Shown: positions 22,987 to 53,604 of the stretch, in pieces
Position numbering within the stretch: position 1 is the first letter of the stretch
Layout of the letters: every line of letters starts with the position of its first letter
Source of the DNA: a virus
DNA: 59,764 nt
IMG/VR virus record: IMGVR_UViG_3300028008_001583
Span: 1-59,764 of that record
Direction: 5' to 3' (one strand)
The notes under the pieces: generated by a model
What the model was told of the DNA's origin: nothing
Database searches by the model: none
What the model saw: only the letters and a program-made list of their open reading frames with translations
Program-made: the position numbers and the translations under genes

Positions 22987-23015
22987 TTGACAACTTAATC
23001 ATCTAGTGTTATACT
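22987..23015 (+). promoter_or_regulatory. Sigma70-type promoter
   Basis: TTGACA at 22987-22992, a 17-base spacer, then TATACT at 23010-23015. It opens the accessory cassette that begins at 23036. Confidence 0.85.
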
Positions 23016-23040
23016 TTAGTAATAAAGGACACTAGATGAT
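22998..23040. promoter_or_regulatory. Inverted repeat flanking the -10, probable operator
   Basis: ATCATCTAGTGT at 22998-23009 and its exact complement ACACTAGATGAT at 23029-23040 are 12-bp arms 19 bases apart. The left arm fills most of the spacer and the right arm covers the region just before and including the ATG. The centre-to-centre distance is 31 bases, about three helical turns, which suits a dimeric repressor. Confidence 0.55.
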
Positions 23041-23617
23041 TAAAAATTTATTTCCAACTCCAGTAAAATTTTCTAATTTAACACTATCGACAGCTCTTTT
23101 ACAACAAGAAGTAAAAGAGCTGTTTTCTCTTGGCTACGGTAGTGATTTAAAAAGCGGAGTAAACGGAACGCGACTAGATATAACAAATGAGTTGTTAGAA
23201 GAAAAAAAGCCGCAAACTATTATTAAACTACTAACACACATACAAGAAGAAGTTTATAACTATTGCAAAGAAGTCAATATCAAACCACAGTATATAACAC
23301 AATCGTGGATAAATGTAAACCCAAAAAATTCTATTAATGTAAGACATAGTCATCCAGGAAGTGTGCTAAGTGGAGCATACTATATGAAATATCCTACAGA
23401 TGCAAACAGTCCTTTAAGCTTTTATCGCAGCAGAGAATTTTCAGATTATGGGTGGAGCTCAATGTCTTTAGATCAAAATATTGAGCTGCAATCAATTTTT
23501 AAGTATTTTCCTGTTGACAATGATCTAGTTATTTTTCCTAGTTTTGTAGAACATGATGTATTGCCTAATCAGAGTAACGAAGACAGGATTAGTTTATCCT
23601 TTAACACTTCACCGTAG
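23036..23617 (+). CDS. 2-oxoglutarate/Fe(II) oxygenase-like protein
   Basis: 193 aa. NVRHSHPGSVLSGAYYMK supplies the first iron-ligand region and LVIFPSFVEHDVLP the distal histidine, followed by DRISLSFN where the 2-oxoglutarate-binding arginine is expected. This matches the putative 2OG-Fe(II) oxygenases often found in marine phages. It would use 2-oxoglutarate and oxygen to hydroxylate an unknown substrate. It is the first gene after a sigma70 promoter and may be expressed before the structural genes. The second oxygenase at 37187 is of a different type. Confidence 0.75.
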   Translation: MIKNLFPTPVKFSNLTLSTALLQQEVKELFSLGYGSDLKSGVNGTRLDITNELLEEKKPQTIIKLLTHIQEEVYNYCKEVNIKPQYITQSWINVNPKNSINVRHSHPGSVLSGAYYMKYPTDANSPLSFYRSREFSDYGWSSMSLDQNIELQSIFKYFPVDNDLVIFPSFVEHDVLPNQSNEDRISLSFNTSP

Positions 23618-23675
23618 CCAGAATTAAAATTTTTTACATAAAATAAAAATATATACTATGCATAGAGGAGTATTT

Positions 23676-24650
23676 ATGAAGAAAGCGTTTTTTATTAACG
23701 GCGGAGCAGGCCGTGTATTATGCAGTATACCTGCATTAGAATATTACAAAGAAAATATTGATTCTGATGTAGTAATAGTATCCGAAGCATGGCACGAACT
23801 GTTTTTATCTTCGTCGCTTAGAAGTAATGTTTGGCCAGCTGGCAGTAAAGATTTATTTCAAACAGTTTTGAAAGATAGAGAAATTATAAGTCCAGAACCT
23901 TACAGACTAAATGCTTATTTTAATCAACGTGTTAATCTAATACAAGCGTTTGACATGTTAATTAATGATGTAGATGAAAATGTTGCTATAAAAGAAATAA
24001 ATTTAGATTTAGGAAAAGCAGATCAAATCTACGGTTATAATTTAATTAATCAAGTTAAAATGCAGATGAAAAAAGATAAAGCAATTGTATTTCAACCTTT
24101 TGGCAGCGGAGTAAAAATAGATGGTAATTTTGTATTTGATGAAAGCGGCAGAAGTTTTGAATTATCAGATGTATTTAGAATTGTTGATGAATTAGCAAAA
24201 GACTACGCAGTTATTTTAATGACTAATTTAAAAATACCAACTGATAGACAGATGGGTGCAGCAATTCCAGAAGACGCAGGATTATTACAATGGATGGGTA
24301 TTGTAAATGCAGCAGACTATTTCCTTGGCTGTGATAGTATGGGTCAACATTATGCACATGCATTAGGTAAGCCGGCTACTGTAGTAATAGGCTCTACATT
24401 TCCAGAGAATATAAGTTATCCTGGAAATAAAGACTTTACAATCATTGATAGTGGCAAAGAAAACAGAGTTTATGTACCATATAGAGTTACTTCTGATCCG
24501 GCATCAGAAAGACATAATGAAGATAATATGATATTAAGCGATGAAAATTATAAGAAAATAATGAAAAGTATAAAAGATAAATTAGGAAAACCTATTTCTA
24601 AAAATAGTTTTCCATTAGCTAATAAACCAAAAGTAATCGGAGAAAAATAA
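23676..24650 (+). CDS. Glycosyltransferase family 9-like (heptosyltransferase-type) protein
   Basis: 324 aa from the ATG at 23676, with AGAGGAG upstream. The ATG at 23658 lies before that site and is rejected. The fold of ADP-heptose:LPS heptosyltransferases is suggested by GGAGRVLCSIPALEYY at the N-terminus and by NAADYFLGCDSMGQHYAHALGKP near residue 215-240, followed by VVIGSTFPENISYPG. That region binds the nucleotide-sugar donor in GT9 enzymes. The ADP-heptose operon at 35-39 kb makes ADP-heptose an attractive donor. The acceptor is unknown. Confidence 0.7.
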   Translation: MKKAFFINGGAGRVLCSIPALEYYKENIDSDVVIVSEAWHELFLSSSLRSNVWPAGSKDLFQTVLKDREIISPEPYRLNAYFNQRVNLIQAFDMLINDVDENVAIKEINLDLGKADQIYGYNLINQVKMQMKKDKAIVFQPFGSGVKIDGNFVFDESGRSFELSDVFRIVDELAKDYAVILMTNLKIPTDRQMGAAIPEDAGLLQWMGIVNAADYFLGCDSMGQHYAHALGKPATVVIGSTFPENISYPGNKDFTIIDSGKENRVYVPYRVTSDPASERHNEDNMILSDENYKKIMKSIKDKLGKPISKNSFPLANKPKVIGEK

Positions 24651-24652
24651 CT

Positions 24653-26455
24653 ATGTCATCAGGATACATTTTAGGAATTTCAAGAGGCCATAATGCAGGC
24701 GTATGTCTACTTAAAGATGGCCAAATTGTTTTTGCTAGTGAAGAAGAAAGATTTACTCGTCACAAATACGACGGCGGCCCGTTGGCAACGATGATGAAAG
24801 TAAAAGAATACACTGATAAAATTGACGCTATTGTTGTGTGTCATACTACAGATTTAAAAGATGGACCTAAGATAGAATATACTGGTGATAATCTTTATTC
24901 TGGATTAGCTAGAAAAATGGGGTTGATTGATCGAAAAGCTGATATACATAGACACCCGCAGTGTATAGACGTCTCTAATCTTCACCATAAAGTACATGCT
25001 GCTTGTGCGTTTTATCGTTCTGGGTTTGACGAAGCTGTTGCTGTCGTTATCGACGGCGCAGGGTCAGCAATGACTGGAGAGACGCAAGACGGTCCTGTAA
25101 CATTATGGGAAGTAGAAAGTATATACGATTGCTCTTATCCAGACAATATTAAAACATTATATAAACATTATGGTTGTAGAGATCCTATTGTTACTGCTAT
25201 TAATCCTAAAACTAATGGAGAACAATTTGGCGATGCACCGGGCCATACATTTACATCGGTTGTTTCAGGACATGCAGGTATTACAAAAGTCTATGAAGCA
25301 GTAACTCAGTATTGCGGATTTCAAGCAATTGAAGCAGGAAAAACAATGGGATTGTTTCCGTACGGAGCCGAAAATGAAAATATTCCTAAATTGTTTACAA
25401 CAGATACAAAAATTCCATTATCTAATCGTACTATGATAGTTCCAACATATCCAAATGGTGCTATTGTAAATCATTATAATTATGATGAATTATCGCCTAG
25501 TCCAACGGGTGACGAGACTGATTGGACCGAATACCAAAATAGAAGAGATTTAGCGTATGCTTGTCAAACACAAACACAAGAACAATCACTTGATATAATA
25601 CTTTCCGCAGTTAAAATGTCTGGTAAGAAGAAAGTAGTGTTAAGTGGAGGATACGGATTAAATTGCGTAGCAAACTACTGGTATTTGAATAGATTAAATG
25701 AAGAAGGTATCGAATTGTTTGTTGAGCCTATTTCAAACGACGGTGGAACGGCTATTGGAGCAGCTCTATTATACTATCATTCTGTAGAGCAGTCAGAGTT
25801 AAGACGACCTAGAGAGATATATTTAGGACCTCAATACAATTATACTGACGATGAAATTAATAAACTTGCCGAAGAATACAATGCAATTGTTGAAGATGCA
25901 ACAGACGAAAAAGTTATTGAGTTAATGACAAATAAAAATATTGTAGCAATGTTTCAAGGCAGAGCAGAAAATGGTCCTAGAGCATTAGGCAATAGAAGCT
26001 TAATGTTTGATCCAACATTTGAAGACGGCAAAGACTTTGTTAACGAAATTAAACGTAGAGAATATTTCCGCCCGTTTGCTGGGTCTATTCTTGCTGAAGA
26101 TGCACACGAATGGTTTGACCTACGCGGTATGGAAGATAGTCCGCATATGATGTATGCTGTTAACTGTCAGCCAGGGATTGCTGAAAAAATTCCTAGCATT
26201 ATTCATGTTGACGGAACTTGTAGGATACAAACAGTTAATGAAGAAGAAAATCCTCTTTATTATCGTGTGATCAAAGCATTTAAAGAAAAGACAGGAGTAC
26301 CAATCATCTTTAATACTAGTTTTAACCTTGGCGGCGAGCCACTAGTTGAAACACTCGAAGATGCACTTTGGACCTTAAGCGAAAGTAAGATTGAATATCT
26401 ATATTTGCCTGAATACGGAAAACTTCTTACAGTCGGAAATTGGACAATTGCTTGA
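24653..26455 (+). CDS. Carbamoyltransferase, NodU/CmcH family
   Basis: 600 aa, the full length of the family, two bases after the previous stop. The N-terminal half has GISRGHNAGVCLL, EEERFTRHKYDG, HHKVHAACAF and VVIDGAGSAM, the Kae1-like ATP/carbamoyl-adenylate domain. The C-terminal half has GGYGLNCVANYW, NDGGTAIGAAL, GRAENGPRALGNRS and GVPIIFNTSFN, the carbamoyl-transfer domain. It converts carbamoyl phosphate and ATP to carbamoyl-AMP and transfers the group to a hydroxyl, usually on a sugar. Beside GT and methyltransferase genes it probably carbamoylates a sugar. Confidence 0.92.
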   Translation: MSSGYILGISRGHNAGVCLLKDGQIVFASEEERFTRHKYDGGPLATMMKVKEYTDKIDAIVVCHTTDLKDGPKIEYTGDNLYSGLARKMGLIDRKADIHRHPQCIDVSNLHHKVHAACAFYRSGFDEAVAVVIDGAGSAMTGETQDGPVTLWEVESIYDCSYPDNIKTLYKHYGCRDPIVTAINPKTNGEQFGDAPGHTFTSVVSGHAGITKVYEAVTQYCGFQAIEAGKTMGLFPYGAENENIPKLFTTDTKIPLSNRTMIVPTYPNGAIVNHYNYDELSPSPTGDETDWTEYQNRRDLAYACQTQTQEQSLDIILSAVKMSGKKKVVLSGGYGLNCVANYWYLNRLNEEGIELFVEPISNDGGTAIGAALLYYHSVEQSELRRPREIYLGPQYNYTDDEINKLAEEYNAIVEDATDEKVIELMTNKNIVAMFQGRAENGPRALGNRSLMFDPTFEDGKDFVNEIKRREYFRPFAGSILAEDAHEWFDLRGMEDSPHMMYAVNCQPGIAEKIPSIIHVDGTCRIQTVNEEENPLYYRVIKAFKEKTGVPIIFNTSFNLGGEPLVETLEDALWTLSESKIEYLYLPEYGKLLTVGNWTIA

Positions 26456-27089
26456 TAAAGATATTGTCGAAGTAAGATTAGATAAATTTTTAATCTACTC
26501 AGCAAATAAACTAGACGGATACGGTTATCAGACAGCAGCTGATGCCGTATCTTGCTTTAAACACTTTTCAAAAGGCAAAAAATATAACCATTGTTTAGAG
26601 TGGTGTTCTGGCCCAGGATATTTAGGTTTTGGAACACTTAGTCAAGGCCTTACAAAAAAACTTACTTTGTTAGATATACACGAACCGAATAAATTTATAG
26701 TAGAAAAAAGTATTGAAAAAAATGATCTTAATAATTGTGCAGACTTTATTTTATCAAACAATTTTCAACAACATTTACCTAGCAGAAAATATGATTTAAT
26801 TATAGGTAATCCTCCTCATTTTTCTTTTGCTCCTACATATGGTAATATCGATCCAAACGAACATAGAAAATATCAAGACAAGGACTGGAAGATTCATAAA
26901 GATTTTTTTGACACAGTTAATGATTTTATTACCGACGATGTTGATATCATCTTAATGGAAAACACAAAGGGCAGTAATCCAGATACATTTAAAGAAATGA
27001 TCAATAGTAATAATTTAAAGATTGAAAATTATTGTCTAAGTGTAACTTATCCTAACGACATTTGGTATTTGCATGTTAAAAAAGATTAG
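26448..27089 (+). CDS. SAM-dependent methyltransferase
   Basis: 213 aa from a TTG at 26448, which overlaps the carbamoyltransferase by 8 bases. An upstream TTG at 26391 would overlap by 65 bases and is less likely. LEWCSGPGYLGFG is the SAM-binding motif I, LLDIHEP follows it, and DLIIGNPPHF is the catalytic NPP motif of N-methyltransferases such as HemK, RlmG and DNA adenine enzymes. The substrate may be protein glutamine, RNA, DNA or a small molecule. Context suggests sugar modification, but the NPPHF motif favours an amide or base nitrogen. Confidence 0.72.
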   Translation: MLDKDIVEVRLDKFLIYSANKLDGYGYQTAADAVSCFKHFSKGKKYNHCLEWCSGPGYLGFGTLSQGLTKKLTLLDIHEPNKFIVEKSIEKNDLNNCADFILSNNFQQHLPSRKYDLIIGNPPHFSFAPTYGNIDPNEHRKYQDKDWKIHKDFFDTVNDFITDDVDIILMENTKGSNPDTFKEMINSNNLKIENYCLSVTYPNDIWYLHVKKD

Positions 27090-35100: not shown

Positions 35101-35368
35101 ACTAGCAGTGGGCACAGGCACAGTAGAATTTACGTTTGTGCAACCACCATATGCACAGCCAGGTGAAACTGTATTCTCTTTTATTGCTACACCGGGAGAA
35201 CGCTCAACGCTTGATTTATCAGAATTGAAAGAACTTACAAACACACCACTAGGTGGACGAGGAACATATCCAAATGGTCCTGATGTGCTTGCACTTAATG
35301 TTTATAAAGTTGGTGGTGTTACAGCTAATGCAAATATTATTCTAAGATGGGGCGAAGCACAAGCCTAA
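29180..35368 (+). CDS. Very large virion protein with five beta repeats (2062 aa)
   Basis: The start at 29180 is close to the previous stop and probably coupled to it. Residues about 25-105 form the same helical module (N-x-SFI-x-x-E, C-ERDVGYVVDAY, D-L-x-x-GGN) that is inserted in the 1579-aa fibre. Residues about 700-1090 contain five repeats of about 90 aa with Y-x-x-G/N-D/N-x-I-x-I-x-G and P-A-N-D-L-T. The final 700 residues include EVTNEGPPGKLAA and YVDNEIMNFTG and look like a conserved tail or baseplate protein of marine myoviruses. No enzyme motif is seen. It could be a long fibre or tail-length element. Confidence 0.7.
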   Translation: MAKTQLKNYVFKPGIGAIDYVYPNAYSLLSANKSFIQKEATAWIQDQVDASATGFVGYTYNQAKCERDVGYVVDAYLKDLRYGGNENVIKTIRYYWDQDVAQVDGDRQPEIQTHTFISTLIRDYIFANSLYSASNSEVTQTVDTNTTVETTVQFTPTDASYTPTTGVMTLTIGTHSLAVGDEIHIAPGAITFTCLLDGGATTHPYPRATGVPNAKGRDPYYYAPLTITSVTGTTITMNVGISSDTSVHSFDSATTNGVTSGPSAKINTLAFNTVDTITNGLNGLPTLVPTGVGTVKVQGRWDLEQILLVTNTTSNEIIYNFSSPTAGGSITQKTDGVNKDPDFLKYLETTDAITTLTLNYNTRTHSSTDALQIFAEEIENGKSVVTTRPYDFGSDAIERMRVAQPLSMLDADFEYGLQPTKWAAIGTLRGYPSVYEVPGTDTPVLSVVTDASAGTEGIGQSQITVTTVGPHGFEPGTPITIKALEDSVSGAARAEGSFVIVEVPTNNSFTFFAKSKVGTVNPTTLSTTYTQLRKAGFYTGASIGQPEVTVVSNGSAGTLVAELDIASGSTVIPFDGPSPEVGAPLVNANIPEGSQVTSIIDTSAGGGDYITPVTIANINPGDLSFTVQDSTGIVDNLALDRGDGTAIYVTSVAGSTVNMSGAFTGAYVANTANYAIAPTAIVSSGTGALVNISSAGGTYTLDGLANQGDNYQVGDILLIQGNLLGGTSPTNDLTLRVLTLDSDTGIGTLELTGNAFDGTTTITNLTGVVVGNNGTDGKFDIVMLNNAYTADVASPDTSLGYIVNDVIKIPGNLIDPTAGTTPANDAYVTVTGIGAGGSITSVSVDGTAPDAQLQFFNPTNSTNGSGSGIIFTVYTNGTTYSVTVDPLNQGINYLPGNTITVTGDLLGGATPANDLTITVDNVGGGGEVTAQSIAGTAYNGRSSVNLPGSNVVGTGATFDVGLAGGTYTVTLTDGGDSYGAGQEILIPAGTTIPGTSPANDLTIAIDTVDAVATGTIGTITESGTAYGGTGTFNGVPTTLQPVSGNSFSVNISRANGTYGIALDNGGTGYAIGNTFRINGPQLDGLQPLNDITLVVSSIDVSTGEITAFTNTYESAAPGDVLTLISTVIVTDATTAPITRSSQITYGALATLEITLSNAHGLVPGNTFIVTASSDDGVNNHDLAAGSFFVTDIPAVNKLRYQARTTGTIDVTSGEILGILYPRPDSFFVHRPYDGGVQLGTGGPQHGAQAIRQSKKYIRYQSGKGIMYTTGALFAPSYDLRSLTADDVEVGSLITVTTDDNDHGVQAGGIVRILGVETPGYNSGPQTAVPPTFDYTVESVIDERTFTIRAQRRLGATTAILGFGSQMSVVAWHGATVRSGIFDDQNGIFWEFDGTQISVVQRTGTRQLAGTIALDIDENLVTGTNTRFTDQLKAGDRIIIKGMTHVVSHVNSQTECTITPDFRGVVNITGAKANLIVDKKTKQSDFNLDRLDGTGPSGYDIDIAKMQMIGIQYSWYGAGFIDFMLRGSDGNFVFAHRMRNSNVNTEAFMRSGNLPVRYEVTNEGPPGKLAAAMDASQDTAVLTDTSFFPDYGTIYVDNEIMNFTGNNKVDNILTGLTRGATFSNFQAGATRSYTASAATTHNDRTGVVLISQTITPLISHWGSAFITDGMFDDDRGYIFSYAETGVEVSTTKQSAFLIRLSPSVSNALVGDLGERELLNRAQLLLQGIEVTSDGVDTGNSNAPVVGGIVIEGVLNPQNYPLNPADIGWTTLSGVAQGGQPSFAQIASGGSVNWSTGEAATTATVSSQAAISINMDSGRYRSDRNRNLIWINANDYRNTFGTTSLAPVQGKTIINAGSYSNIQSGTTITGGYMNNSGDYGYFILSRNTTNNNNDRINAATANAYTIQSADIPLVDRNFAYFDKTSFDSSGAKIGTELSNGGSVSFPSNTLINSIDLVDFGGTEYYEVQFNQSFSGTLAVGTGTVEFTFVQPPYAQPGETVFSFIATPGERSTLDLSELKELTNTPLGGRGTYPNGPDVLALNVYKVGGVTANANIILRWGEAQA
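31290..32520 (+). repeat. Five tandem coding repeats of about 90 aa
   Basis: Units start near 31313, 31581, 31856, 32110 and 32386, spaced 268, 275, 254 and 276 bases. Each encodes a Y-x-x-G-D-x-I-x-I-x-G then P-x-N-D motif. The DNA has diverged between units. Confidence 0.7.
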
Positions 35369-35379
35369 AGGGCTTGTGC
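35357..35379. terminator. Bidirectional hairpin between convergent genes
   Basis: GCACAAGCC at 35357-35365 and GGCTTGTGC at 35371-35379 make a perfect 9-bp stem with loop TAAAG. The stop codons of both convergent genes overlap at 35365-35368 (CTAA), at the top of the stem. Neither side has a long T run, so termination may be partial. Confidence 0.65.
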
Positions 35380-35994
35380 AAACTCCCACAAGTTATCAAA
35401 GATTAATGTTTGTTTTTTGATTTGTTTGTAGACATGTTTGTTTAATTGTTTTTCAGTTTCCAAACCATATCCAGTTCGCACTAGTATTGGCTTTGCTCCT
35501 ATTTTATGAGCTGCTTTTAGATCACTCATTTTGTCACCTACAAAAAATCCCTTAGAAAATTTTATGTACGGATGTTCTTTTTCGCATCGCTTGAACATGC
35601 CAATATTTGGTTTAGCATATACATCATTTTTTCTACTACTTGCACTGTAGTATATTGCATCAATACTAGGACATCCTGCTTGGCCTAATAAATCTAACAT
35701 CTTATTGTGTACTTGATCTACATCTCCGGGAGTCATTAACCCCTTTTCAATACCGCCTTGGTTAGTAATAACTGCTATTCTATGACCTTTTGATCTTAGC
35801 AATGCTACTGCTTCTAAACTTCCAGGAATAGGTTGAAACATCATAGGATTAGTGACGTATGTTCCTAGGTCAACATTTAATACCCCGTCTCGATCTATAC
35901 CAATCACTGGCTGATTATAATCTTCATTGACTATGTTAGACTGTGTAGTATTATTTGATTCAACAAACGAACTGTCTAGTACACTTCTAGCCAT
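35365..35994 (-). CDS. gmhB: HAD phosphatase, GmhB-like (heptose bisphosphate phosphatase)
   Basis: 209 aa from the ATG at 35994. The HAD motifs are GIDRDGVLN (nucleophile and acid aspartates at 34 and 36), VITNQGG (motif II) and FVGDKMSDLKAAHKIG (motif IV). This order matches D-glycero-D-manno-heptose 1,7-bisphosphate 7-phosphatase. The cysteine-rich zinc loop usual in GmhB before the RKP motif is replaced by YSASSRKNDVYAKP and has no cysteines. An N-terminal Ser/Asn-rich extension of about 28 residues is also unusual. It is the last gene of the minus-strand operon and overlaps the cupin by 8 bases. Confidence 0.82.
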   Translation of the reverse strand: MARSVLDSSFVESNNTTQSNIVNEDYNQPVIGIDRDGVLNVDLGTYVTNPMMFQPIPGSLEAVALLRSKGHRIAVITNQGGIEKGLMTPGDVDQVHNKMLDLLGQAGCPSIDAIYYSASSRKNDVYAKPNIGMFKRCEKEHPYIKFSKGFFVGDKMSDLKAAHKIGAKPILVRTGYGLETEKQLNKHVYKQIKKQTLIFDNLWEFAQAL

Positions 35995-36382
35995 TTTCTG
36001 CCTTTTGTTTTTGACTATCACCGGGAGCAACTCTATAGTTGTCCTCTACGCTGTCTGCTGTACTAACTTCAGTAATGCTAGAACTACCTTGTAAGCAAAT
36101 AAGTCTATGAGGTTGTAATGGAGGATTGTGCCATACATCTCCTTCATTTAATTCTTTTTCATACATTCCAGCAGTAGTAGTATCAATCCATTGTACTTTA
36201 AATTTGCCAGTATTTACAAACCAAGTTTCGTCTTTTTCTTTGTGAAAGTGCATTGAAAACATTGCCCCTTCTTTTTCAAAGAACATAATTTTACCGCAGT
36301 ACTTGTCAGTAGATGCCCAAATTAATTCGTAACCCCATCCTTTTGGAACTACGCCCTGTAATCTAGTTGGTTCATTTTCCAT
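35987..36382 (-). CDS. Cupin-domain protein
   Basis: 131 aa. HFHKEKDETWFVNTG gives the cupin motif 1 (HxH and E), and GDVWHNPPLQPHRLICLQG gives motif 2 with its histidine. Such small cupins occur as sugar-nucleotide isomerases or epimerases of the WxcM/mannose-6-phosphate-isomerase type. Between HldD and GmhB it may act on a sugar in the same pathway, perhaps replacing a missing isomerase, but this is only inferred. It overlaps hldD by 11 bases and gmhB by 8 bases. Confidence 0.75.
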   Translation of the reverse strand: MENEPTRLQGVVPKGWGYELIWASTDKYCGKIMFFEKEGAMFSMHFHKEKDETWFVNTGKFKVQWIDTTTAGMYEKELNEGDVWHNPPLQPHRLICLQGSSSITEVSTADSVEDNYRVAPGDSQKQKAENG

Positions 36383-37190
36383 TAATATAATCCTCTATGC
36401 TTGTCCATTGCATATCTACTACACTATTTAAATTAGTTAAATTTGCACATGTGTATTCTTGATATTGACCTTTTAAATTTGCTGGCATCGGTATATAATT
36501 TATGCCAGCATTGTATTTGTTAGCAATAGTTTGTGCTACGGTTTCAAAACTTACAGGGTTGCCAGTACCAACATTGAATATACCTGATTGCCTTACATCA
36601 AACATTTTTTCGTGTAATTTGCAGATATCATCTACGCAAATAAAGTCTCGTTTATATTTGTCACTGTCTTCGAACAGTGTAATTACACTATCTTCTTTAG
36701 CTTGCTTTGTAAATTTAGTATAAGGACTCGCTTGATCGCCTTTGTGATTCTCGCCTTCGCCATACACATTGAAATATCTAAATCCTTGAATAATTATTTC
36801 AAACTCGTCTTGAAACTGTCCTAAGAATCTATCAAACAAATACTTTGACCATGCGTAAGGTGACTGCGGCAACAATGGCCCGTCTTCAGTAAAATGCTCT
36901 GTGGGTCCGTACACACTTGCACTAGATGCATATTGTAAATTAGTACCAAAGTTTTCACATACTTGTGCAAGCCTTACAGTAAACTCAAAGTTTTGTTCTA
37001 GTATTTGATTAACGTCAGTGTATGTAGTTGAACTAATTGCACCAGTATGTATGCACCAGTCGTAATCTTCTGTACTAGGGATGATACCAGGAGCCCACTC
37101 CCAGCCTTCTACTTCGTGTCCCTGTGCTTGCAAATATAATGCAATATTTGAACCAATGAATCCTTTGTGTCCTGTAACTAATATTTTCAT
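36372..37190 (-). CDS. hldD: ADP-L-glycero-D-manno-heptose 6-epimerase
   Basis: 272 aa short-chain dehydrogenase-type epimerase. GHKGFIGSN at 7-15 is the NAD(P) glycine motif G-x-x-G-x-x-G, SSASVYG follows, and Y112-x-x-x-K116 is the catalytic pair. The segment FRYFNVYGEGENHKGD and the later KRDFICVDDI are characteristic of HldD rather than of generic epimerases. It interconverts the D-glycero and L-glycero forms of ADP-manno-heptose. It is slightly shorter than the bacterial enzyme (about 310 aa). The start overlaps the oxygenase gene by 4 bases. Confidence 0.88.
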   Translation of the reverse strand: MKILVTGHKGFIGSNIALYLQAQGHEVEGWEWAPGIIPSTEDYDWCIHTGAISSTTYTDVNQILEQNFEFTVRLAQVCENFGTNLQYASSASVYGPTEHFTEDGPLLPQSPYAWSKYLFDRFLGQFQDEFEIIIQGFRYFNVYGEGENHKGDQASPYTKFTKQAKEDSVITLFEDSDKYKRDFICVDDICKLHEKMFDVRQSGIFNVGTGNPVSFETVAQTIANKYNAGINYIPMPANLKGQYQEYTCANLTNLNSVVDMQWTSIEDYINGK

Positions 37191-37816
37191 TTATTTTCCT
37201 CGAGTAGTTTTTTATATTTTTCACCCCATTGTTTTTTAAATATGGGACTTATTATATTATTATTACGTTCGTGTTCACTTTGTGGAGGCCCGCCAAATAT
37301 GTATCCTAATGTTACACGAGGCTCAACGTCATTTGTTGGCACACCTCTGTGCCACAAGTTACTAGGAAATATAACACAGCGATTATCTTTATAATCTATA
37401 TCACATATTTTTTCGCCGCCATGATCAGGAAAATCAGTCCAAAAATCCATTCCTGTGTCTCCAGAAATAAAATGTACCATAGTCCATGCTGGAGGCCCCA
37501 TATCTGCATGTACACCACCTACTAAAGTTTTTGTAGTTAGATTAAGTTGACATTGAACAAAGTGTAATGGTAGTACTTCGTCATCGTTGCTTAGTTTATC
37601 TCTAGAATCATTGAGTGCAGCAAAAGTTGCTTTGTACTCCCATGGTATTTCATGTAGACCAAATAGCGGCCATATTTTACTAAAAAAAGCGTTACCTACG
37701 TCAGGACCAACACCGTGGTGTTGACACGTTACTGGTATTGATAAAATATTTGTTTTAATAGATCTATATAACCATTCTGGTACAATATCATCGAAAACAA
37801 AAATATCACTAGACAT
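37187..37816 (-). CDS. 2-oxoglutarate/Fe(II) oxygenase
   Basis: 209 aa. GGVHADMGPPAWTMV carries the H-x-D iron ligands and CVIFPSNLWHRGVP the distal histidine. PRVTLGYIF supplies the arginine that binds 2-oxoglutarate. It therefore appears catalytically complete. Its place between hldE and hldD, with a 14-base gap and a 4-base overlap, suggests hydroxylation of a sugar intermediate or a host target made at the same time. No substrate can be read from the sequence. Confidence 0.78.
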   Translation of the reverse strand: MSSDIFVFDDIVPEWLYRSIKTNILSIPVTCQHHGVGPDVGNAFFSKIWPLFGLHEIPWEYKATFAALNDSRDKLSNDDEVLPLHFVQCQLNLTTKTLVGGVHADMGPPAWTMVHFISGDTGMDFWTDFPDHGGEKICDIDYKDNRCVIFPSNLWHRGVPTNDVEPRVTLGYIFGGPPQSEHERNNNIISPIFKKQWGEKYKKLLEENK

Positions 37817-37830
37817 TTAAGAAATTCCTT

Positions 37831-38970
37831 TCATTTACTATTCTTTATAATCTGCGTTGTTGAATATCCGCCTACTGTAGGTATAATATGCACATCAGTT
37901 AAATCATGTCCTACAACAGTTTCAACAGTATAATCTCCGCCTTTTACAATCAAGTTAGGCTGTATATGTTTAATTAACTCATAAGGAGTATCTTGTTCAA
38001 AAACGTGAACTTCATCTACCCAAGGTAGTATAGATATCTGTTCAACACGTTTTTCTATATTGTTTATTGGACGGGCGTTGCCTTTTAGGCGCTTTACGCT
38101 TGCATCTGAATTAAGCCCAACTACAAGTTTGTCGCCTAAACTACGTGCTTCTTTTAATAAATTAAAATGTCCTGTGTGCATAATATCAAACACACCGTTT
38201 GTAAAGATTACACGTTCTTCAATATCACTGCGTGTAAGTATATGTGTACCTACGTGCTGTACTGCACGTCTAGATCCTTTAATAGCAAGTTCTAAACATT
38301 GCGTATAACCATAATTCTTAGTTAAACCGTATACAAATGCAGCTAAGAAACAATCACCTGCACCAGTAACATCTGATACTTCTACTTGTGCAACAGGCAG
38401 ATTATACTCAACACCATCTATACTAGCAAGTACATTATCACCGGCATTAGTAGTAATAATATTACCTTGCCACTGACAAAACCCAAACTTAGTAAATTCA
38501 CTGTTATTAGGTTTTACTAACCATGCGTCTTTATATTGAGTTGCATGTTCTTTAGGATCTACAATAATCTTACAATCAAACTTATTAATATGTTCAATAA
38601 TTCTTAGAGATTCGTCTAGTACACCTTTGTTATAATCACTTAATATTACATAATCGTATTGTGAAAAGTCACTACGTAATACATTTCTTAGCACAGCAGA
38701 ACCGTCTGCATCTTTGTCATCGTCTATACGTGTAATATAATGTCCGTCACATATTATTCGTGTCTTAATACTACGTGGTTGATTTGTTTCAAATAATGTA
38801 ACATCAACTCCTAGACTTTTAAGATTTTCATATACAAGTCCAGCACCACCTAATGTTTTAACTTCGTGTTGATATTTGACCACAGGTACTGGAGCCTCAG
38901 GGCTTATACGTTCTGAAGTGCCATAAATATATTTGTCAACGATTACATCGCCAAAAACTAATACTTTCAT
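37831..38970 (-). CDS. hldE: Bifunctional heptose kinase / heptose-1-phosphate adenylyltransferase
   Basis: 379 aa fusion. The N-terminal part is a ribokinase-like D-glycero-D-manno-heptose 7-phosphate kinase, with GDVIVDKYIYG, RISPEAPVPVV, LGGAG and the catalytic VTGAGD near residue 205. The C-terminal part is a nucleotidyltransferase with FTNGVFDIMHTGH (HxGH motif) near 256-268 and GLNSDASVKRLKG. It is about 100 residues shorter than E. coli HldE. It is the first gene of the minus-strand operon and its ATG lies at the predicted +1 of a consensus promoter. It makes ADP-D-glycero-D-manno-heptose in two separate steps. Confidence 0.93.
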   Translation of the reverse strand: MKVLVFGDVIVDKYIYGTSERISPEAPVPVVKYQHEVKTLGGAGLVYENLKSLGVDVTLFETNQPRSIKTRIICDGHYITRIDDDKDADGSAVLRNVLRSDFSQYDYVILSDYNKGVLDESLRIIEHINKFDCKIIVDPKEHATQYKDAWLVKPNNSEFTKFGFCQWQGNIITTNAGDNVLASIDGVEYNLPVAQVEVSDVTGAGDCFLAAFVYGLTKNYGYTQCLELAIKGSRRAVQHVGTHILTRSDIEERVIFTNGVFDIMHTGHFNLLKEARSLGDKLVVGLNSDASVKRLKGNARPINNIEKRVEQISILPWVDEVHVFEQDTPYELIKHIQPNLIVKGGDYTVETVVGHDLTDVHIIPTVGGYSTTQIIKNSK

Positions 38971-38976
38971 AATTAT

Positions 38977-39005
38977 ATTATACGTTCTTTTGTATTATCT
39001 GTCAA
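38977..39005 (-). promoter_or_regulatory. Consensus sigma70 promoter for the ADP-heptose operon
   Basis: On the minus strand TTGACA (39005-39000), a 17-base spacer and TATAAT (38982-38977) match the consensus exactly. Six bases separate the -10 from the hldE ATG, so +1 falls on or beside the start codon. The -35 overlaps the end of the Nudix gene. Confidence 0.9.
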
Positions 39006-39468
39006 GAAGGTTTATAGTTTGAAACACAGTTTCTAACTTTTTTAAGTTTATTTTACTTTGTAAAGTATTACGCAATCCGTGGTGTAACGGCTTTGGCCAC
39101 TTAGTAAAACTGCACCAAGCATAACCATTATGTTCGTCATTAAGAATAGGCATAAATTCAGACTGTACTACGCAAAGATATGTATGAAAATGAAAATGTG
39201 AATCAATAGAAATAAAACTTTCTAATGGGAGAGTTTTTTTAATTTCTGGTAAAAATCCTATTTCTTCTTTTACTTCTCTTTGCAAGCCTTCCCAGGGTGT
39301 TTCGGCAGCTTCGTTAGTGCCTCCTACAAGTCCCCACATATTATTACGTTTGCCGTTTGCTCTATGTAAAAAAAGAAATCTATTAGTATCTAGTGTGTAG
39401 AATAGTGCTCCACTACATGTTATTGTATTGACCATAACAGTAGTTAGCCATTCAAATCTATTCTCCAT
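38995..39468 (-). CDS. Nudix hydrolase
   Basis: 157 aa. The Nudix box G-x5-E-x7-REVKEEIG is complete (GGTNEAAE then REVKEEIG), with the magnesium-binding REVKEE helix. The preceding WGLVGG and the GALFYTL strand fit a GDP-mannose or NDP-sugar type Nudix fold. It would hydrolyse a nucleoside diphosphate linked to another group. Whether it acts on ADP-heptose, on nucleotides or on RNA caps is unknown. It overlaps gp15 by 25 bases, and an ATG at 39435 is an alternative start. Confidence 0.85.
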   Translation of the reverse strand: MENRFEWLTTVMVNTITCSGALFYTLDTNRFLFLHRANGKRNNMWGLVGGTNEAAETPWEGLQREVKEEIGFLPEIKKTLPLESFISIDSHFHFHTYLCVVQSEFMPILNDEHNGYAWCSFTKWPKPLHHGLRNTLQSKINLKKLETVFQTINLLDR

Positions 39469-42829: not shown

Positions 42830-42858
42830 TTGACATTTAGTATTAATTAAGTTATACT
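42830..42858 (+). promoter_or_regulatory. Sigma70-type promoter
   Basis: TTGACA at 42830-42835, a 17-base spacer and TATACT at 42853-42858. The inverted repeat TATAC/GTATA (spacer TGTAC) follows the -10. AAGGAG at 42872 precedes the kinase start. Confidence 0.85.
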
Positions 42859-42883
42859 GTACGTATACTTTAAGGAGATGCTT

Positions 42884-52428: not shown

Positions 52429-53604
52429 ATGTCAAACTACTTTTTTAGCGAAAGCGATCTTACTCCGTTATATAATGCAGTTCCATCATTTATAGAAGAG
52501 ACTGTCTCGTTGTGCCATGTATGCTACAATCATTTGCCTGCATTAAAATATGAAAAAGATGGAAAATTATATCTTGTAAAATACTGCAAAGATCACGGTA
52601 TACATCATTATGTTATTGAAAATGATATAGACTTCTATCAAAGTTTAAATTGTGAATACAACAAGCCTTGGGACTTTAACGGCGGTGTTATGATCGAAGG
52701 AAGTGATAGATGCAATTTAGATTGTCCGCATTGCTATCATATTCCAAATAATAAAATACAAGATCCTGCACAAGAACTTTTAATGTCTCAAGTTGCAGAT
52801 ATTGAATCTAAAATGAGATGGCCGGGAGATCCCTTTTGGGTTGTGCTTTTAGCAGGTGCAGAACCTACTCTAAGAAAAGACTTTCCGTACCTATTAGAGA
52901 GAATAAAAACAGACTATAATAATACTATACAATGCTATGTAATGTCAAACGGAATAAAATTTGAAGATGTAAATTTTGTAAAATCGTCAAAATCTGCAGG
53001 ATTAGATAGTGTGTGCTTTGGTTTAAATCATCCTACATATAATAACAATATGATAATTAGAAACAAACAAGAACGTGCAGTTTATAATATTTTAGAAGAA
53101 GACTTAGGACTAAATTATCTTAGTTATACTATGAATAATTTTAACGAATTAAATGATATTATGCAAGAAATTTTATATAAAGGATGGACACCAACACATT
53201 TTAGAATTCGTTACGGAAGTGATATTGGAAGAAATACTGGACAAGAACGATTGTTTTTAAGTGATGTCTTTAAAAGTGTACAAAGATGGTGTCAAGATAA
53301 TAATAAAAGTTTTGAAATTATTGAACCGGCTGATAACAACATATATCACATAATGGTTAAAGTAGAAGACAAATATATAAGATTAATACAGTGGTGTGAC
53401 GAATACGATATTGATATGGAAAGTTTGAAATCAGGACCTTGGAGTGATTTTACGCCAGGCTCTATAACTAATTTTTTAAATCAAATTATTAGAAGAAATG
53501 CGTGGAAAAACAAAGGATTAACTCTTTTAGATAGCCCCCCAGAAAGATATCACATGAGACAAATACCAATAACTGATAAACTAGATTTAAAAAAGCTAAT
53601 ATAA
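52429..53604 (+). CDS. Radical SAM enzyme with N-terminal cysteine ribbon
   Basis: 391 aa. C95-x3-C99-x2-C102 (CNLDCPHCYH) is the radical SAM [4Fe-4S] motif, and AGAEPTLRKDFP is the usual GGEP-like SAM-binding stretch. Residues 29-56 hold C-x2-C-x20-C-x2-H, a small ribbon before the core. This architecture recalls the MJ0619/Tes group of radical SAM enzymes, but the match is by pattern. Chemistry could be methylation, C-C coupling or a peptide modification. Its own leaderless late transcript, between the terminase genes, suggests it is needed late. Confidence 0.85.
   Translation: MSNYFFSESDLTPLYNAVPSFIEETVSLCHVCYNHLPALKYEKDGKLYLVKYCKDHGIHHYVIENDIDFYQSLNCEYNKPWDFNGGVMIEGSDRCNLDCPHCYHIPNNKIQDPAQELLMSQVADIESKMRWPGDPFWVVLLAGAEPTLRKDFPYLLERIKTDYNNTIQCYVMSNGIKFEDVNFVKSSKSAGLDSVCFGLNHPTYNNNMIIRNKQERAVYNILEEDLGLNYLSYTMNNFNELNDIMQEILYKGWTPTHFRIRYGSDIGRNTGQERLFLSDVFKSVQRWCQDNNKSFEIIEPADNNIYHIMVKVEDKYIRLIQWCDEYDIDMESLKSGPWSDFTPGSITNFLNQIIRRNAWKNKGLTLLDSPPERYHMRQIPITDKLDLKKLI

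Follow-up and report, generated by a model that had tools for sequence, protein, structure and literature searches.

In bacteria, ADP-heptose is synthesised by the GmhA-HldE-GmhB-HldD pathway. To our knowledge, no enzyme other than GmhA has been described that catalyses the first committed step in making heptose. Its reaction is a C1-C2 ketose-to-manno-aldose isomerisation like that of phosphomannose isomerase, on a sugar one carbon longer. GmhA is also under investigation as a target for drugs (PMC5387315, PMC11056994). In phages, a lipopolysaccharide (LPS)/heptose cassette, T4-GC 302-308, is already known from the T4-like cyanophages P-SSM2, S-SSM7 and S-CAM1 (PMC3037559); the enzymology was not worked out there. 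Here, a related operon was analysed on IMG/VR record IMGVR_UViG_3300028008_001583, a linear fragment of 59,764 bases that was taken whole and is called the window. The operon is best explained as an ADP-heptose route in which a cupin probably takes GmhA's step. A literature search covering one paper collection found no paper linking cupins to this step.

The operon comprised six open reading frames (ORFs) on the minus strand, in this order from 39468 to 35365:
38995-39468, minus strand: NUDIX hydrolase (Pfam NUDIX, 9e-17), a conserved neighbour overlapping the end of gp15
37831-38970, minus strand: HldE-like fusion (PRK11316, 4e-81; PDB 4e84, 5x9q)
37187-37816, minus strand: 2OG-Fe(II) oxygenase-like protein (phrog_274, 2e-13; phrog_81, 5e-7; Pfam 2OG, 0.011)
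36372-37190, minus strand: SDR protein, HldD-like ADP-heptose 6-epimerase (TIGR02197, 4e-67; PDB 1eq2, 7e-43)
35987-36382, minus strand: cupin, proposed sedoheptulose-7-phosphate isomerase (invariant motif; 2y0o, 6e-6; swaps with GmhA; GmhA exclusion)
35365-36030, minus strand: GmhB-like HAD phosphatase (PRK08942, 3e-37; PDB 4pnh, 4e-21)

The ORFs were separated by gaps of 24 and 14 bp and then overlapped by 4, 11 and about 8-44 bp, the last value depending on the uncertain start of the GmhB-like HAD (TTG 36030 or ATG 35994). At the level of sequence, the operon was confirmed as real and as composed of heptose-pathway genes, in agreement with the initial annotation, which had described an HldE fusion, a GmhB-like phosphatase, HldD, a cupin and a 2OG oxygenase in one overlapped operon. 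With the cyanophage cassette it shares GT9-like, carbamoyltransferase, adenylyltransferase, kinase, cupin and HldD genes in one neighbourhood. However, P-SSM2, S-SSM7 and S-CAM1 carry separate kinase and adenylyltransferase genes instead of a fused HldE, a mini-HAD of 107-114 amino acids instead of a full-length HAD, and HldD on the opposite strand instead of within a minus-strand operon. The carriers also differ, being T4-like cyanophages there and a jumbo-type phage in the window. With the bacterial pathway, the window shares homologues of the kinase, adenylyltransferase, phosphatase and epimerase, but it has a cupin instead of GmhA, a shorter kinase domain and a HAD without zinc loop. What is new is the role assigned to the cupin, the fusion in HldE, the full length of the GmhB-like HAD and the carriage by a jumbo-type phage.

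Direct exchange of GmhA and the cupin in operons and gene fusions was the strongest evidence for the cupin as a putative isomerase. In archaeal genomes, the arrangement cupin-SDR-kinase-[HAD.adenylyltransferase] (G066, G077) had a counterpart with GmhA in the same slot, GmhA-SDR-kinase-[HAD.adenylyltransferase] (G162, G228). A second operon type showed the same exchange (G232 versus G224). Beside an [adenylyltransferase.HAD] fusion, [kinase.cupin] in G083 and G230 corresponded to [kinase.GmhA] in G139. NCBIfam confirmed GmhA within the G139 fusion, with 216.8 bits against a cut-off of 209.45. This kinase.GmhA fusion and the adjoining adenylyltransferase.HAD fusion lie at 989-3646 of contig L152, from an archaeal genome. 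Two Woesearchaeota also encoded the fusions kinase.cupin (L102) and HAD.cupin.adenylyltransferase (L099). In NCBIfam, the L102 cupin part matched the GMP/PMI model TIGR01479, with an E-value of 7e-6 and far under its cut-off. A NUDIX gene adjoins the heptose genes in both of these contigs (L102 6624-7022, L099 5974-6378), as it does in the phage cassettes (window 38995-39468).

A cupin profile search yielded 37 cellular loci. About 13 to 16 of them adjoined heptose kinase, adenylyltransferase or GmhB-like genes, and none of these heptose-context loci contained GmhA. In addition, 193 genomes of a Woesearchaeota-like phylum were searched for the cupin, GmhA and the adenylyltransferase, with presence cut-offs placed at score gaps and chosen after the scores had been seen. 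The adenylyltransferase was present in 36 genomes, 20 with GmhA, 13 with the cupin, three with neither and none with both (hypergeometric P 2.4e-7). Among the GmhA-negative genomes, cupin and adenylyltransferase were associated (Fisher P 4e-13). Outside the archaea, 13 of 16 tested genomes with a cupin apart from heptose genes had a strong adenylyltransferase, and no GmhA match of at least 147 bits was found in those 13. Kinase and adenylyltransferase were close together in eight of them; G028 was doubtful, with a 122-bit SIS match. A further bacterial phylum scan returned seven cupins. Marinoscillum (G023) lacked GmhA, which about 120 of 148 relatives possess; since its adenylyltransferase stands alone as a single domain, it was set aside and not used as a clear cellular example. 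Altogether, the cupins are likely to form a second sedoheptulose-7-phosphate isomerase family, unrelated to GmhA and displacing it in phages, DPANN-type archaea and several bacterial phyla, which would make the phage route complete. The operon and fusion swaps and the exclusion of GmhA thus gave strong support to a passing suggestion of the initial annotation, that the cupin may supply the isomerase step. That annotation's view that the isomerase alone is missing from the operon is probably incorrect.

The cupin itself carried a canonical metal motif with the ligands H45, H47, E52 and H92. The frame G-x5-H-x-H-x4-E-x6-G and the second His were invariant in 30 sequences. The best PDB profile match was the D-lyxose ketol-isomerase 2y0o (6e-6); another D-lyxose/D-mannose isomerase and L-ribose isomerases were also matched, amid oxalate decarboxylases and quercetinases. 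The likeness to D-lyxose isomerase and phosphomannose isomerase cupins consists of the metal motif and weak profile similarity; the window cupin differs in being remote in sequence and in its proposed substrate, a C7 sugar phosphate. By analogy, the chemistry common to GmhA and phosphomannose isomerase could extend to the window cupin. A confident AlphaFold model of the cupin (predicted local distance difference test, pLDDT, 90.7) matched, among others, a lyxose isomerase with bound fructose and the phosphomannose isomerase of Thermococcus. In a tree of 64 cupins, three deep groups were resolved, a cyanophage type, an archaeal/bacterial group and the window type, and all three included members in heptose context.

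In the phages, an IMG/VR scan returned 62 loci, of which 34 extended 3 kb or more past hldE and could be scored. Every one of the 34 had the cupin and HldD, 33 had NUDIX and 29 the HAD. The order gp14-gp15-NUDIX-HldE-HldD-cupin-HAD recurred in dozens of viral contigs, so that the grouping is not due to chance. The cupin was never lost from the scorable cassettes and the HAD sometimes was, which favours extending the archaeal role of the cupin to the phage. The 2OG gene, which matched 2OG profiles weakly, stood outside the conserved core as a variable insert. A close copy was found only in one near-identical contig (L002), and three others had distant 2OG genes nearby (L052, L056, L057).

A SIS/GmhA protein (SIS_2 domain) was detected in none of 21 phage records (the window and 20 related records, all fragments, the longest 198 kb). 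This extended the initial annotation, in which GmhA had not been visible and a wider gmhA search had been proposed, and a GmhA borne elsewhere by these phages was rejected as a candidate. The cyanophage 'phosphoheptose isomerase' (phrog_1238) was also rejected as the isomerase. It belongs to the HAD type, is 107-114 residues long and has the motifs DxD(G/N)T, T-x-R, K and DD. In hhalign it matched a GmhB-like profile with an E-value of 2.5e-4, at a modest probability of 43%, and GmhA with 0.21, which is no match. Its copies in three contigs (L064 10113-10457, L065 11055-11390, L066 9086-9409) are mini-HADs and look misannotated. The cyanophage cupin (phrog_7851) carries the label cysteine dioxygenase.

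Several observations speak against a replacement of GmhA by the cupin. The co-occurrence P-values ignore shared ancestry and gaps in metagenome-assembled genomes (MAGs), whose incompleteness is a general caveat on the genome counts. At relaxed thresholds, 2 of 46 genomes held both cupin and GmhA (P 1e-5). The Binataceae genome G039 encoded the cupin and a 150-bit GmhA, and in G021, G025 and G032 GmhA was present and the cupin lay on phage-like or small contigs. Five of the scorable phage cassettes had no HAD. The fold matches of the cupin spread over many cupin functions, and the reaction cannot be told from the modelled fold alone. Identity between the window cupin and the archaeal swap cupins was about one-third, and the window cupin fell into another deep clade, so function is transferred by family and not by close orthology. 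Since cupins have many functions and some cellular ones lie away from heptose genes, the phage might use a host GmhA and employ the cupin for another step, such as epimerisation or sugar tailoring. This is unlikely given that the cupin occupied the exact position of GmhA in operons and fusions and was mutually exclusive with it. Clear GmhA was also scarce among relatives of cyanophage hosts (9 of 101 Cyanobiaceae genomes). From these comparisons, we infer that the cupin is a non-orthologous sedoheptulose-7-phosphate isomerase replacing GmhA.

For the remaining enzymes, activities are predicted from family membership. The HldE-like protein combined a heptose-7-phosphate kinase domain (residues 1-250) and a heptose-1-phosphate adenylyltransferase domain (251-379; TIGR02199, 4e-46). 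Its nearest solved structures were the heptose-7-phosphate kinase 4e84 and, for the adenylyltransferase domain, the putative cytidylyltransferase 5x9q. The HldD-like protein was nearest to HldD 1eq2, with S, Y, K (YxxxK) and HKG motifs aligned, and the GmhB-like protein to GmhB 4pnh, with the HAD DxD motif present and D-x-D-G kept. Their scores fell below curated equivalog cut-offs, hence the names ending in '-like': HldE-like with 272.9 of 521 bits (PRK11316), 174 of 345 (TIGR02198) and 156.5 of 181.5 (TIGR02199), HldD-like with 226.8 of 274.6 (TIGR02197) and GmhB-like with 127.9 of 178 (PRK08942) and 69.3 of 149.6 (TIGR00213). The kinase domain was about 60 residues shorter than in bacterial enzymes, HldD-like lacked part of the N-terminal region of bacterial HldD, and the HAD lacked the Cys/His zinc loop of the bacterial enzyme. 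The low scores, which also count against an ADP-heptose route, together with the shortened kinase and the lost zinc loop, would fit an operon making a related but different nucleotide sugar with enzymes drifted from heptose specificity. However, the closest structures were heptose enzymes for all three proteins, the catalytic motifs of HldD were kept and the GT9 partner had a heptosyltransferase fold, which makes such a product improbable. The closeness to non-heptose HAD and SDR families that the initial annotation had named as contrary evidence was likewise not found.

In the proposed ADP-heptose route, the cupin would isomerise sedoheptulose 7-phosphate in GmhA's place, and the HldE kinase domain would form heptose 1,7-bisphosphate. 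The GmhB-like HAD would then remove the 7-phosphate, the HldE adenylyltransferase domain would yield ADP-D,D-heptose and HldD would epimerise C6. The heptose would be attached by the GT9-like transferase at 23658, and the neighbouring carbamoyltransferase may modify the glycan.

Promoter-like sites were found at three positions:
38977-39005, minus strand: consensus sigma-70 promoter TTGACA-N17-TATAAT, matching 12 of 12 positions and ending 7 nt before the hldE start
22987-23015, plus strand: promoter-like TTGACA-N17-TATACT with one mismatch, preceding the block 23036-27089 with the GT9-like gene
42830-42858, plus strand: promoter-like TTGACA-N17-TATACT with one mismatch, upstream of the gene at 42878

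The site ahead of hldE was the only perfect one in the window; the single-mismatch sites numbered two, one of them ahead of the GT9-like block. All 12 positions were conserved in 41 of 59 homologous loci, and the spacer sequence varied. Because the -35 element and the end of the NUDIX gene overlap, some of this conservation may be coding. T4-type late promoters TATAAATA showed no enrichment. The site ahead of hldE suggests that the heptose operon is transcribed by a host-type RNA polymerase, independently of the tail genes, and a host-type promoter tends to favour an effect on the host in the course of infection. Filler DNA was once considered for the cyanophage LPS clusters (PMC3037559), which occur in the larger cyanophage genomes. 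Non-functional filler within a large genome's variable region is very improbable here, as the genes were intact, their order was conserved in dozens of contigs and the promoter was conserved while its spacer varied. The gene at 42878 had weak matches to nucleotide-metabolism PHROGs.

The following three genes lie in the second block:
23036-23617, plus strand: 2OG-Fe(II) oxygenase (Pfam PF13759, 7e-22), ahead of the GT9-like gene
23658-24650, plus strand: GT9-like (hepto)glycosyltransferase (fold matches WaaC, WaaF, TibC and 3tov), a homologue of cyanophage T4-GC 302
24653-26455, plus strand: NodU-type carbamoyltransferase (Pfam PF16861, 3e-58), a homologue of cyanophage T4-GC 303

The GT9-like transferase had been placed at 23676 in the initial annotation; its fold supported the assignment, with the gene at 23658-24650. 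The Pfam match was marginal and below cut-off (PF01075, E 0.13, 12 bits against a gathering threshold of 22), hence 'GT9-like'. A sequence search of the PDB gave no usable match, so a fold search was needed. The first 28 fold matches of the model (pLDDT 78) were all GT9 heptosyltransferases. The protein resembles WaaC, WaaF and TibC in predicted fold and in the D-S-x-G-Q-H region but is barely recognisable as GT9 in sequence. It was 60% identical to the P-SSM2 copy, which adjoins a carbamoyltransferase and lies two genes away from the cassette. In MH319759, GT9-like, carbamoyltransferase-like and full-length GmhB-like HAD genes were adjacent. Heptose is reported to be absent from the LPS of marine Synechococcus (PMC4515613), and with the scarcity of GmhA in Cyanobiaceae, the cyanophage product does not have to be destined for the native core of the host. 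A change of the cell surface, which the initial annotation suggested for example as a block to superinfection, has already been proposed for the LPS genes of P-SSM2 (PMC2984593). As heptose acceptor, the host surface is slightly favoured over the virion.

If the cupin assignment is correct, an unrelated replacement of GmhA would fill a gap in archaeal, bacterial and phage heptose pathways. Two misleading phage annotations would be corrected, phosphoheptose isomerase for the mini-HAD and cysteine dioxygenase for the cupin. These phages would possess the whole ADP-heptose route, a striking trait for cyanophages given the report of heptose-free marine Synechococcus LPS (PMC4515613).

The structural module of the window was T4-like, with gp13-, gp14- and gp15-like genes, sheath, tube, large terminase (TerL) and single-stranded DNA-binding protein. 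TerL was closest to jumbo phages such as PA5oct (54%), then Phosso, and cyanophages were not among its best matches. No psbA was found in the window and seven related records. Together with the TerL result, this left a cyanophage identity unsupported, and the window is assigned to a marine, jumbo-type phage with giant-phage relatives. On L068 (335 kb) and L069 (153 kb), two contigs binned in a Marinimicrobia MAG, this cassette and the structural genes recurred; both look like jumbo phage sequence. In a related phage, a 5-aminolevulinate synthase gene adjoined the heptose genes (L051 7838-9025, minus strand; TIGR01821, 549 bits against a cut-off of 338.55), which hints at an alphaproteobacterial host. 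Shemin-pathway genes were previously reported for aquatic phages (PMC11480375). Very cysteine-rich large proteins were encoded in structural regions of related phages (L067 10016-13161; L051 16415-17509, minus strand). In the window, a radical SAM protein with an HMPTM-type zinc ribbon (52429-53604) immediately preceded the large terminase. At 44-1295, a GT25-like glycosyltransferase gene (Pfam 6e-13), possibly a second glycan gene, came after a peroxiredoxin-like gene.

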